Positions 9,402 through 14,360 of a stretch of DNA of 64,000 bases are shown here, piece by piece. Location of the stretch: contig CAMNTH010000002.1 of the NCBI GenBank assembly GCA_946557785.1, positions 124,001 through 188,000 on the forward strand, in the 5' to 3' direction. This DNA comes from an uncultured Blautia sp. Its GTDB lineage: Bacteria; Bacillota; Clostridia; Lachnospirales; Lachnospiraceae. The notes beneath the pieces are model-generated. The model saw only the letters and a program-made list of their open reading frames with translations. It had not been told where the DNA came from and did no database searches. Each line of letters begins with the position of its first letter. The first letter of the stretch is position 1. The position numbers were made by a program, and so were the translations under genes.

Positions 9402-10685
9402 TTACCTACGTGCCAGTTCCCGTGTAATATCCGCCCAGGAAACTCCTTTTTCTGCCATGAGGACCATTACATGATAAAGGAAATCCGAAATTTCGTATTT
9501 TATCTCTTCTTTATCAGGATTTTTGGCTGCGATTACGATTTCGGTACACTCTTCTCCTACCTTTTTCAATATCTTGTCAATACCTTTGTCAAAGAGATAG
9601 TTGGTATAGGAACCTTCTTTCGGGTTTTCCTTGCGATCAAGAATAACATCAAATACATCCTGGAAAACCCGAAGAGGGTTGGTATCGTCATATTCTTTTT
9701 TCATCAGCGGCTTAAAAAAGCAGGTTCTGCTGCCTGTATGGCATGCAGCGCCAACTTGTGCTACTTTTGCAAGGATTGTATCGTTGTCACAATCCAATGT
9801 GAGAGATTTTACATACTGCAGATGCCCGGAGGTCAGTCCCTTTGTCCAAAGCTCCTGGCGGCTTCGGCTCCAGTAAGTCATTTTTCCGCTTTTTAGAGTG
9901 GTTTCAAACGCCTCCTCATTCATATAAGCCACCATGAGAACTTCGTCTGTTTTATAATCCTGTACGACCACAGGAATCAGTCCGTCACTATTTAAGTGAA
10001 ATTCAGACCAGGGAATACTGCTTTCGAAGGTATTCACAGAGATACCGTTTTCCCGGCACAGTTCTTTAAATGCAAGGAGATCCTGCCTGGCATCGCTTAC
10101 ATACGAACCGCACAGGCCGCTTACAGCCGGACTCTTTAACAATTCCACAAGTGCTTTATCCCTGCTCTCATCTGTATGAAAGATCACCGGGATGGAAGAA
10201 ACCCGGGCAATGGCGTCCTGTACCGCATCAAGAGCCAGCACTGCTTTGGCGTATTGCTCGATCAGTTCCTGATGATCCATATATTCTTCCAGGGAAGAAA
10301 TACTGACCATTATTCGCTCCTTCCCAAAGCGTTTGGAAACCTCCTCCAGAAGCTCCACATTTCCCTGCTTGGAAAAATTCAGCACTGTTTTTGCACAGCC
10401 TGCATAAATAAGCTTTTTCACATCTTCCATACGCTTGATATTACCGGCTACGATCACCGGAATCTCAGAAGCAGCGCAAATTTCCTTGATTTTTCCAATG
10501 GCTTTTTCGTGTTCCTGATCCTCTGAGGAAAAGTCGAATACCAGAAGCTCATCTGCTCCGTTATCACTGTAAAATTTTGCCAGTGCTTCTACATCACCAT
10601 CCCCAAGCAGATTACGCTGTCCAAATCCGGTGACTGCCTTTCCGTTCTGCAGGTACAGACAGGGAATAATTAATTTATTTACCAT
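9402..10685 (-). CDS. hisI: HisIE with an N-terminal degenerate HisF-like barrel
   Basis: A 427-residue three-part protein. Residues 1-220 resemble HisF (IIPCL...NGK.V.G...RN.LGD) but the catalytic aspartate of IIPCLD is tyrosine ([10 protein letters not shown], residue 11), the second catalytic aspartate is replaced by serine (MVSISS), and the glycine pairs that bind phosphate are altered (AGN for AGG). Residues about 225-330 are HisI, phosphoribosyl-AMP cyclohydrolase ([32 protein letters not shown]). Residues about 340-427 are HisE, phosphoribosyl-ATP pyrophosphatase ([19 protein letters not shown]). It thus does histidine steps 2 and 3, with the barrel probably structural. ATG at 10685 with AAGGAG, 13 bases after hisB. 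Confidence 0.9.
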
Positions 10686-10698
10686 GATTTTTCTCCTT

Positions 10699-11289
10699 TT
10701 ATGCAAGGCTCCCTTTGGTAGAGAGCACATCTTTTATTCTTGGGTCAAAGGACACCGCTTCATCCACAGCCTTTGCAAAGCTTTTAAACATTGCTTCTGC
10801 AACATGATGGTTGTTTCCGCCGGACAATACTTTTATATGAAGGTTCATGCCGCAGGTATAGGAAATTGCATAAAAGAATTCTTTTACCATTTCGGAAGAC
10901 ATATCCCCGATCTTTTCACAGGTAAATTCCCAGTCCCAGGAAAAATATGGTCTTCCGGACAGATCCACTGCGCAAAGAACCAAGGACTCATCCATTGGAA
11001 GGACAGCGCTTCCGAACCTGCGGATTCCTTTTTTGTCTCCCAAGGCTTCTTTAATGGCAGTTCCAAGGACGATCCCCGTATCCTCTATAGTATGGTGATC
11101 GTCTACATTCAAATCCCCATGGACTCTCAGGCAGAGATCAAAGAATCCGTGCCTTGTAAATCCATCCAGCATATGGTCAAAAAAGCCCACGCCTGTTTCG
11201 ATATCAGCATAACCTGTTCCATCCAGACAAAGCTTCAGCTTGATTTCCGTTTCTTTGGTATTACGTTCTACAGATGCTTCTCTTGCCAT
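10699..11289 (-). CDS. hisB: Imidazoleglycerol-phosphate dehydratase
   Basis: A 196-residue monofunctional HisB, which dehydrates imidazole-glycerol phosphate to imidazole-acetol phosphate in histidine synthesis. The manganese-binding histidine motifs are all present: [20 protein letters not shown] and [10 protein letters not shown]. The length fits the single-domain enzyme; there is no phosphatase domain, so a separate histidinol phosphatase must be encoded elsewhere. The start codon overlaps the hisD stop by one base (TAATG), which indicates translational coupling. Confidence 0.97.
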
Positions 11290-12587
11290 TATTCCTCCTC
11301 CTCAAAGCGGACGGCAATGGAATTGGCATGTGCCGTAAGCTGCTCAGATGCTGCAAATTGTTCAATATCTTTGTGTATTTCCCTTAAGGCATCTCTGGAA
11401 TAATAGATGATGCTGGATTTTTTTACAAAATCATCTACAGACAGCGGGGAGAAGAACTTCGCTGTTCCATTGGTTGGAAGAATATGATTGGGGCCTGCAA
11501 AATAATCCCCCAAAGGCTCTGAGCTGTATTCTCCAATAAAGATTGCCCCTGCGTTTCGCACCTTCATCATAACCTCAAAAGGATTTTTGGTGATAATTTC
11601 CATATGTTCGGAAGCAATGGCATTGGTAGCCAAAACAGCCTCATCCATATTGTCCGCAATAAGGATATAGCCGAAATTATCAAGGGACTTTTGGATGATC
11701 TCCTTGCGTGAAAGAACCTCTGTAAAGTTCTGAACTTCTTTATCTACCTTGTCTGCCAGCTCCTCACTTGTAGTAATAAGGATTGCGGAGGCCAGTTCGT
11801 CATGCTCAGCCTGTGACAAAAGATCTGCTGCCACAAAGCGGGGATTTGCCGTTTCATCCGCCAGGATTAGAATCTCACTGGGGCCTGCAATGGAATCAAT
11901 GCTTACATGTCCGTAAACTGCTTTTTTTGCAAGGGCAACGAAAATATTGCCAGGGCCTACGATCTTATCTACCTTTGGGATGCTCTCTGTTCCGTAGGCA
12001 AGAGCGGCTACCGCCTGTGCCCCGCCCGCTTTATAGATCACATCGGCTCCTGCTTCATTGGCAGCGACCAAAGTGGCAGGATTTATCTTTCCATCTTTTC
12101 CGGGCGGGGTGGTCATTACAATCTCGTTTACTCCGGCAACCTTTGCAGGCACTACATTCATGAGTACTGAGGAAGGGTATACGGCCTTGCCGCCGGGAAC
12201 ATAGACCCCCACCTTTTCAAGGGGCGTAACCTTCTGGCCAAGCATGGTGCCCTTTGTTTCGCTGGTAAACCAGCTATTCTGTTTCTGCTTTTCATGGTAA
12301 CTGCGGATGTTCACAAGAGCCTTTCGGATCACGTCAATGAGAGAAGGATCCACAAGGCTGTACGCTTCTTCTATTTCTTCGTTTGATACACGGATATTTC
12401 CTGCATGGATTTCTGCCTTGTCAAATTCTTCTGTGTATGCAAAAACAGCGGCGTCTCCTTCTTCTTTTACTTTTGAGAGGATCCGGGCAACAGCATCCTC
12501 AAATTTCCCGTAATTGTTGGGGCTTCTTTTTAAAAGATTCTCTAAAATACCTTTGGTTGTCTCTTTGGTAAGCCTTACTTTGCGCAT
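11289..12587 (-). CDS. hisD: Histidinol dehydrogenase
   Basis: A 432-residue NAD-dependent, zinc-dependent enzyme that converts histidinol to histidine in two oxidations. Family segments seen include VPGGKAVYPSS, IAGPSEILI, LLSQAEHDELA (zinc-binding Q and H), ASEHMEI (catalytic E-H) and AGPNHILPT. The ATG at 12587 has GAGGAG 9 bases upstream and gives the usual length; a longer frame begins at 12614 inside hisG. Confidence 0.97.
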   Translation of the reverse strand: MRKVRLTKETTKGILENLLKRSPNNYGKFEDAVARILSKVKEEGDAAVFAYTEEFDKAEIHAGNIRVSNEEIEEAYSLVDPSLIDVIRKALVNIRSYHEKQKQNSWFTSETKGTMLGQKVTPLEKVGVYVPGGKAVYPSSVLMNVVPAKVAGVNEIVMTTPPGKDGKINPATLVAANEAGADVIYKAGGAQAVAALAYGTESIPKVDKIVGPGNIFVALAKKAVYGHVSIDSIAGPSEILILADETANPRFVAADLLSQAEHDELASAILITTSEELADKVDKEVQNFTEVLSRKEIIQKSLDNFGYILIADNMDEAVLATNAIASEHMEIITKNPFEVMMKVRNAGAIFIGEYSSEPLGDYFAGPNHILPTNGTAKFFSPLSVDDFVKKSSIIYYSRDALREIHKDIEQFAASEQLTAHANSIAVRFEEEE

Positions 12588-12606
12588 ACTCTTCGTCTCC
12601 TCTATC

Positions 12607-13242
12607 TTACACATATTCCCGAAGCATTAAAATCAGCTTACGGATTCGCTCATCTTCCATTTTCATGCTAACCTGATTAACCACCATACGGGCAGAAAGA
12701 GGACAAACCTCCTCAAGAACCTTCAGCCCGTTTTCCTTCAGTGTGGAGCCTGTTTCCACAATATCCACGATTACTTCGGAAAGCCCTACAATGGGAGCCA
12801 GCTCAATGGAGCCGTTGAGCTTAATGATTTCTACAGTCTGGTGTTTTTTATTATAGAAATAGTCTTTTGCAATATGGGGATACTTGGTTGCTACCCGGAT
12901 CAATTGATTATTGTTTAGTACTTCTCTTGCGCTTTCAGGTCCGCATACACACATTGTGCAGTTCCCGAAACCCAGATCCATGACCTCGTAAAGCTTCCTT
13001 CCTTCCTCCATTATGGTATCCTTTCCCACTACGCCGATGTCTGCAGCACCGTACTCCACATAGGTGGGAACATCAGGCCCTTTTGCAAGGAAAAATTTCA
13101 GCTTCAGTTCTTCATTGACAAAAATTAGTTTCCTGGAATCCTTGTTACGCATTTCTTCGCATGTAATGCCTACTTTTTCCAGGAGGTCCATGGTCTTATT
13201 AGCCAGCCTGCCTTTTGTCAAAGCAAACGTAAGATATCTCAT
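12607..13242 (-). CDS. hisG: ATP phosphoribosyltransferase, short form
   Basis: A 211-residue catalytic subunit for the first step of histidine synthesis, joining ATP and PRPP. It lacks the C-terminal regulatory domain of long HisG proteins and so needs HisZ, which is encoded directly upstream. The PRPP loop is visible as [16 protein letters not shown]. Its ATG overlaps the hisZ stop codon by four bases (ATGA), which supports tight co-translation of the two subunits. Confidence 0.97.
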
Positions 13243-14360
13243 TCTTCTGCCTCCTTTTCAAGACGCAGCGCTACATTTATGCCTTGGCTGCGAAAGCTTT
13301 GAGCCTGTTTCAATGCTTCCCTGCGGTTTTCTTTTTGGTAGGTAATTATCACCGTATCTTCATTCTCAGGCAGGGCGATTTTCTGTCTGGAAAGGGCAGC
13401 CATAAGGCTGTCCACCATGATTGCAAAGCCAATGGCAGCAGCCGGTTTTCCGAAATGCTTCATAAGCGTATTGTACCGGCCTCCTTTAATCAGGGGCTCC
13501 CCTGTTCCGTAAGTATATGCCTGGAAAATGATTCCCGTATAGTAACGGTATTTGCTCAGCATTCCAAAATCAAAGCTTATATATTTTTCACAGCCGTACA
13601 GCTTCAGGATTTCATAGATTTCCTCCAGCCTTGAAACGGCATTTAAGGCATGTTCATTGGAAGTTAGCTCCTTTGCACGCAAAAGAACCTCCCTGGAGCC
13701 AAATAAATGAGGAAGCTCCATAAAAGCCCTGGACAATTCCAAAGACAGCTTCTGCTCCTGTACCAGATCTTCCACACCGAAATAGTTTTTCTGAGAAATC
13801 AGGGTGCGAAGGCGTTCCTGCGCCTCATCATCAAGCCCTGCTTCTTCCAAAAGGGATTTGAAGTAATCCACCTGACCCACGCTTACCTGGAATTCCTTAA
13901 GGTGCGAGGCCTTAAGGCACTCTACAGTCATTGCAAGCAGCTCCGCGTCCGCATCTGCAGATGCATCTCCATAACGCTCCACACCCATCTGGGTATTTTC
14001 TTTTAATCTCCCGCGGAAATCAGAATTATTGATAAACGTATTCCCTGTATAGCAAAGGCTGACAACTTCCTTATCAGGTGAAAAATAGGTTGCACATGCC
14101 CTGGATACGGATGGGGTAAAGTCCGGCCGCAGAACCAGGGTGTTTCCTTCTCTGTCAAAAAATTTGTAAAGATCCTTGGACGGAATGGTTCCCACCTCAT
14201 TGCTGAATACTTCAAAAAATTCAAATGTGGGAGTGTCTATATTCTCATAGCCATAACGGGAAAAAACCTTCCGGAGCATTTCCTGAAGATTTTGTTTCCG
14301 GCTGCATTCTTTGCTGTAAATATCCCTTACACCTTCTGGGGTATGAAAGATACGCTGCAT
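13239..14360 (-). CDS. hisZ: ATP phosphoribosyltransferase regulatory subunit
   Basis: A 373-residue paralogue of histidyl-tRNA synthetase that lacks the anticodon-binding domain and serves as the histidine-sensing partner of short HisG. The class II synthetase-like core is clear ([54 protein letters not shown]). It is the first gene of the operon, with AGGAGG 8 bases before the ATG and a consensus promoter about 85 bases upstream. The C-terminus is abrupt (RLEKEAEE), as is usual in this family. Confidence 0.95.

Follow-up and report, generated by a model that had tools for sequence, protein, structure and literature searches.

The 64,000-nucleotide stretch analysed here, referred to below as the window (positions 124,001 to 188,000 of contig CAMNTH010000002.1, assembly GCA_946557785.1, from an uncultured Blautia sp.), carries on its minus strand a fused gene (10685 to 9402, stop codon at 9402-9404) for a 427-amino acid protein. 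Its domains are, in order, a HisF-type (beta/alpha)8 barrel (residues 1-222; 10020..10685), HisI (phosphoribosyl-AMP cyclohydrolase, residues 223-335; 9681..10019) and HisE (phosphoribosyl-ATP pyrophosphohydrolase, residues 336-427; 9405..9680). Judged by its sequence and by a structure model, the barrel is a pseudo-HisF, that is, a dead barrel derived from HisF, in which Tyr11 and Ser130 replace the catalytic aspartates. The whole is best explained, at somewhat better than even confidence, by a hisF that was fused, then decayed, and was kept as a non-catalytic docking or regulatory module.

Pfam family PF00977 (HisA/HisF) was matched over residues 6-134 of the window protein at 83.1 bits (cut-off 23.6). 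In a 58-row tree, which was midpoint rooted and contains long branches, the N-terminal domains (support 99/96), HisF (92/45) and HisA (100/100) each fell on one side of a branch. The structure model shows the (beta/alpha)8 fold of HisF with all eight strands (predicted local distance difference test score, 91.6). The first-pass annotation had proposed a HisF-like barrel, and derivation from HisF is supported; a HisA origin was ruled out by tree and fold. Membership in other families failed by score, both for HisA (TIGR00007, 50.2 bits against a cut-off of 228.95) and for the HisF paralogues of sugar amidation, WbuZ (TIGR03572, 87.3 against 299.7) and AglZ/HisF2 (NF038364, 69.5 against 310). 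The barrel lies at a similar distance from these two paralogues, which were compared by profile score and were not among the tree rows.

Asp11 and Asp130, which we take to be the catalytic residues of HisF, were invariant in 44/44 HisF sequences, and their loss from the window protein had been read correctly in the first-pass annotation. Among 181 non-redundant relatives, Asp11 was retained in 2, Asp130 in 27 and both in 1, so that the loss of the first is nearly fixed and that of the second is not. The phosphate-binding glycines are altered, as had also been noticed: the beta3 triplet GGG reads AGN and the beta7 GG reads TD. The beta6 D-G loop is deleted in the window barrel, and its positions are gaps in 168-170 of the 181 relatives. 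T104 and G82, presumably phosphate-binding residues in HisF, are mostly replaced across the relatives, in which position 11 is Y or F in 142/181, position 82 is N in 139/181 and position 105 is S in 130/181. Against the HisF equivalog model TIGR00735 the barrel scored 83.8 bits (cut-off 294.55). An active HisF was rejected because Asp11 is gone in 179/181 and the D-G loop is gapped in nearly as many; an assembly artefact was rejected because proteins built in this way turn up in many genera, far more often than chance would give. Compared with HisF, then, the window barrel is fused to HisIE instead of standing beside hisH, has lost Asp11 and (usually, in the clade) Asp130, and lacks the phosphate site of the C-terminal half and the beta5 and beta6 loops.

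The HisIE part (residues 223-427) is ordinary. It scored 269.5 bits with NF002747 (cut-off 187) and holds the columns that are invariant in the HisI and HisE of its relatives. HisI was matched by PF01502 (PRA-CH, residues 251-324, 120.2 bits) and NF000768 (164 bits, cut-off 126), and HisE by PF01503 (PRA-PH, residues 344-427, 76.3 bits) and TIGR03188 (110.1 bits, cut-off 42.7). This part resembles known bifunctional HisIE, of which solved examples (6j2l, 7bgm) have chains of 202-238 amino acids without a barrel, whereas the window protein has one. That HisF itself must lie elsewhere was borne out: a canonical HisF was found on contig C9 of the same genome (284.8 bits with PF00977, 384.9 with the HisF equivalog model) adjoining hisH, and the working cyclase is therefore located elsewhere than in the fused gene.

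The ratio of nonsynonymous to synonymous substitution rates (dN/dS) was calculated over 53 close pairs, some of whose loci are duplicates (L007/L047). The median was 0.058 for the barrel (24 pairs computable, maximum 0.19) and 0.029 for HisIE, and barrel dN was ~1.9 times HisIE dN. Site rates from 178 of the 181 N-domains were 0.26 for helix alpha3, 0.40 for the bottom face of the N-terminal half, 0.51 for the beta1-beta4 tops and 0.94 for the beta5-beta8 tops (beta1-beta4 slower than beta5-beta8, p 0.0007), with 0.73 for the first half of the barrel and 1.37 for the second. Fifteen positions are newly constrained relative to HisF, among them D56, R85, E87, K90, K91, Y94, E115 and R119, and R59, invariant in all 44 HisF, is H in 161/181 barrels. 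In the structure model the newly constrained residues map to, or next to, helices 56-72, 86-94 and 107-120, and barrel geometry suggests that they form one surface patch. With its catalytic residues lost across the clade and its fold kept, the domain has the marks of a pseudoenzyme; on the model and the substitution rates it is folded and under purifying selection, not junk.

The survey of HisIE proteins for the barrel showed that the fusion is common in the window's family. In a class sample of 293 genomes, full-length matches among those listed occurred only in this family, of which 12 of 13 genomes carry the barrel and G121 does not, and in one genome of another family, G130. In a family sample, 376/396 genomes matched the window protein, and 294/396 had a best whole-protein match at E < 1e-80, a threshold count over the matches listed that is not strict, since HisIE alone gave 3e-84 in G342, whose barrel is shortened. 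Of the 82 genomes with weaker matches, 27 were sorted by reading and the other 55 do not enter the tally; the fusion is thus present in about 298/396 family genomes, the 294 plus 4 barrel-bearers among those read (G324, G460, G510 and G512). The remainder of the 27 comprised 13 genomes with HisI alone (12 of which have HisD), 2 with a HisA-HisI fusion, 6 with a canonical hisF beside hisI(E) and 2 with only HisF-HisH or less. A barrel-like stretch of at least 100 residues preceded HisI in 79/79 loci read (L007-L017 and L051-L118; the genome of L017 is outside the family sample). Named bearers include Lachnotalea glycerini, Faecalicatena contorta, Eubacterium ramulus, Mediterraneibacter massiliensis and Acetitomaculum ruminis.

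The position of the fusion suggests its source. Bacterial hisA lies directly upstream in 14/138 barrel-bearing loci (in the window, hisB holds that place), and the slot downstream of hisA is hisF in most outgroup loci read, e.g. L194-L197. One barrel, in locus L172, is half decayed: D11, D130, N103 and S104 are kept, loop 1 and the C-half site are lost, and the genome also holds a full HisF. On synteny, this intermediate and the tree together, the sequences are best read as a syntenic hisF that was fused and later decayed; the alternative origin would be fusion of a duplicate hisF copy.

Other fusions of his genes were observed alongside. The G130 protein (L018/L045) is a 454-amino acid HisF-HisIE fusion with hisA upstream, and its barrel exceeds the HisF equivalog cut-off (317 bits), whereas the window barrel falls under it; from its sequence, it is likely a true trifunctional enzyme. 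HisA-HisIE fusions of 496 amino acids occur in another Clostridia family (L038, L039 and L040, from G171, G205 and G237), and HisA-HisI fusions of 350-376 amino acids in L132, L133 and L226. In L132 and L133, which belong to the window's family, a pseudo-HisF between hisA and hisI was perhaps deleted. HisF-HisI fusions with a separate HisE were found in L046 (379 amino acids) and L198 (371 amino acids), and in L122 (G460) a barrel-HisI is followed by a HisE that has diverged greatly (32% identity).

The barrel was also found in genomes in which no histidine pathway could be detected. The starting set, searched for HisF and HisH, was seven fusion-bearing genomes with a single family-sample match. 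In three, G395 and G625 (same genus, both 99% complete) and G385 (92%), genome searches found no HisF, HisH, HisD, HisB or eukaryote-type hisA. For bacterial hisA, the HisF query, which finds hisA elsewhere, matched only their own barrel, no search with a hisA model having been made. The only other his gene within the 5.5-9.5 kb read around the fusion was hisZ, in G625 and G385, no genome-wide search for HisG having been made. The fused gene of G395 has its own AGGAG and follows, after 13 bases, a gene that we take to be recU-like.

Decay in these three genomes fell mainly on HisI. Of 39 HisI residues strictly invariant in a 32-sequence alignment, G395, G625 and G385 have lost 23, 12 and 10, against 0 or 1 in the relatives compared; losses were 1, 1 and 8 of 28 HisE residues chosen in the same way and 1, 0 and 3 of 16 barrel residues, a set that includes 11 nearly invariant ones. 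With the HisI equivalog model they score 42.8, 119.5 and 120.5, short of the cut-off of 126, which the window protein and its sister G677 (161.9) pass, and their PF00977 barrel scores (87.0, 85.5 and 86.7) are like that of the window. Relative to kin, barrel dN was in the normal range and HisI dN was up roughly two- to three-fold. End branches in the HisIE tree were 0.35, 1.13 and 0.99 against 0.008-0.17 for relatives (window protein 0.39); in the barrel tree they were 0.20, 0.31 and 0.39 against 0.054-0.53 (window protein 1.86). HisF is present in 8/10 genomes of the genus of G395 and G625, and the converse case occurs in that genus, G678 and G679 having hisD, hisB and HisF but cut barrels. 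Since HisI has decayed beside a barrel of unchanged profile score in three lineages with no detectable pathway, and the barrel has been lost or cut in HisD-bearing ones, the constraint on the barrel is separable from HisI and from the chemistry of the cyclase, and probably also from the synthesis of histidine; its retention hints at a non-enzymatic role.

No HisF or HisH was found in G318, G325 and G427 (96, 90 and 91% complete), which carry the operon through the fusion (hisZ, hisG, hisD; hisB is on another contig in G325). That the fusion stands in for HisF there is no likelier than that contigs are missing, and G318 has Y11. G475, first taken as HisF-less, has HisF split over contigs and HisH present. 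HisZ and HisG of G427 are fused in one 549-amino acid frame (L262:3208-4857).

We propose that in a Lachnospiraceae ancestor, as synteny suggests, an in-frame fusion probably joined hisIE to the hisF of a hisA-hisF-hisIE operon, and that a separate HisH-HisF pair then took over the cyclase work or had it all along. The fused copy would then have lost its chemistry along with Asp11, the beta5-beta6 loops, the C-terminal phosphate site and, in most cases, Asp130, and the barrel, to go by the model and dN/dS, would have stayed folded and under purifying selection. Its most likely mode of action would be that of a non-catalytic docking or regulatory module: newly fixed residues of alpha2-alpha4 (H59, R85, E87, K90, K91, Y94, E115 and R119) may bind a protein partner, the candidates being HisZ and, by self-association, the fused protein itself, and a small ligand may sit in a remodelled pocket at the beta1-beta4 ends (Y/F11, D51, S53, G81, N82, N103 and S105). 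The barrel would have been kept, while HisI decayed, in three lineages whose pathway is not detectable. That the pseudo-HisF has a job outside histidine biosynthesis, these lineages having dropped the pathway and kept the protein as a docking or sensing module, two of them with HisZ, is a tentative proposal, held at a little under even confidence.

Several observations weigh against this account. Many dS values were saturated, just 4 pairs having a barrel dS below 1 (dN/dS 0.036, 0.188, 0.099 and 0.088). The N-half bottom face is as slow as the pocket (0.40 against 0.51), which means that part of the constraint is on the fold, and the helix patch was placed by alignment and the secondary structure of the model, not by coordinates. 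Pairs that link the barrel to HisI or HisE are about half of all pairs but were depleted among those that covary most, with 11 in the top 100, and many such pairs centre on helix 8 or the linker against 328-334; covariation was set aside as evidence, its signal being weak and the alignment too shallow (effective number of sequences about 102). Retention concerns 3 draft genomes (20, 60 and 210 contigs) from a single sub-clade, of which G385 is the least complete at 92%, and the barrel tree forces three separate pathway losses, whereas the long-branched HisIE tree requires one. Among the matches listed, 24/28 HisD-less family genomes lack a full-length fused match (8 of the HisD-less, G606, G607, G620, G622, G625, G630, G666 and G670, were inferred from absence among HisD matches), so the fused protein is usually discarded with the pathway and is no universal survivor of its loss. 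In a fourth HisD-less bearer, G630 (L052), the operon runs hisZ-hisG-hisB-fusion, its hisD slot being empty, and G630 is absent among the HisD matches. The whole-HisIE cut-off of 187 was passed by G625 (223.8) and G385 (207.3), not by G395 (144.6), and that of PF01502 (27) by G625 (84.6) and G385 (84.8), so that for these two the case for lost HisI activity comes from the active-site residues that are gone. HisE has kept its active site in G395 and G625, not in G385, and may be what selection retains in the former two. Finally, HisZ of G625 is less constrained (52% identical to kin that are 65% alike), and searches of G395 and 11 other HisD-less genomes gave no HisZ-level match.

Among the alternatives, an effector sensor, in which the N-half pocket binds a ligand (histidine, 5-aminoimidazole-4-carboxamide ribonucleotide or a ribotide) and sets HisIE activity, fares best and is nevertheless unlikely: the slow beta1-beta4 tops and the recurrent Y/F11, N82 and S105 are in its favour, but T104 and G82 are mostly replaced, and the N-half bottom face and helix alpha3 are slower than the pocket. 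The first-pass annotation had suggested that the barrel may bind an effector or tether HisIE to HisF/HisH. Such a tether, with the barrel mimicking HisF and bringing HisIE to HisF-HisH or HisA for channelling, would suit the coexistence of HisF, HisH and hisA with the fusion in the window genome and the newly conserved residues on alpha2 and alpha3, helices that presumably face HisH in IGP (imidazole glycerol phosphate) synthase. It is distinctly unlikely, however: R59 is replaced by H in most barrels, and the barrel and its profile score are conserved in the three genomes in which HisF, HisH and eukaryote-type hisA were not found. As a sole role it was rejected. That the histidine-less genomes keep the protein for the MazG-like pyrophosphohydrolase of HisE, and need the barrel for nothing but folding, is very unlikely: in G395 and G625 the active-site residues are intact and TIGR03188 scores are 98.5 and 103.6 bits (cut-off 42.7), but G385 has T, T and N at HisE E378, E379 and E398 and still keeps the barrel, and HisE dN to relatives is raised in all three. 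Just as improbable is a passive relic or solubility spacer, kept because in-frame deletions are rare, which would fit the faster evolution of the barrel and its truncation or loss in L119 (G342), G678, G679 and the HisI-only genomes, but not a dN/dS of 0.06, newly fixed surface residues and unchanged constraint where HisI decays.

The fused gene closes a minus-strand run in the window, hisZ-hisG-hisD-hisB-fusion. Upstream of it lie hisB (imidazoleglycerol-phosphate dehydratase, 10699..11289, PF00475 222 bits), hisD (histidinol dehydrogenase, 11289..12614, PF00815 603 bits), hisG (short-form ATP phosphoribosyltransferase, 12607..13242, PF01634 190 bits) and hisZ (HisRS-like regulatory subunit, 13239..14360, PF13393 257 bits, with a weak HisZ-like C-terminal domain, PF21996, at 20.4 bits, below the cut-off of 27), all on the minus strand. 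The ATG at 10685 is preceded, 7 bases away, by AGGAG (10693..10697, minus strand), a likely ribosome-binding site; a longer frame of 442 amino acids from 10730 would overlap hisB. No match at gathering scores was obtained in an Rfam scan of the whole window. A eukaryote-type hisA of the same genome is on contig C13 (L002:1489-2259; TIGR02129 308.9 bits, cut-off 229.3), and such a hisA exceeded this cut-off in 4/8 family genomes searched.

The fusion itself is not new. A hisF-hisI-hisE fusion is named among fused his genes (PMC9413887) and HisA/F-HisIE fusions are reported from four archaeal metagenome assemblies (PMC11237513); the available excerpts of both mention neither a dead barrel nor retention without the pathway. 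HisF-HisIE is not among the five his fusions in the excerpt of PMC1963479, and a Roseburia gene is called hisEI in that of PMC7478625. The available parts of PMC7284861, PMC10138114 and PMC9026213 do not mention a dead HisF barrel on HisIE, nor did a literature search at the level of titles and abstract openings return a paper describing one. Within this literature, neither the pseudoenzyme state nor retention in the absence of the pathway seems to have been described.

The fused gene is called HisIE in annotation, and at least one database copy (P0106) is called HisF. Predictions of histidine prototrophy for gut Lachnospiraceae could be misled, as the barrel is no cyclase and HisI looks dead in some species. 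HisF is a standard model barrel in work on the evolution, design and allostery of enzymes, and a family-wide dead HisF, the half-decayed L172 and the pathway-less keepers would form a natural series from enzyme to pseudoenzyme. If the proposed role is true, the fused protein would be bifunctional in a hidden sense, combining a pathway enzyme with a pathway-independent docking or sensing module.
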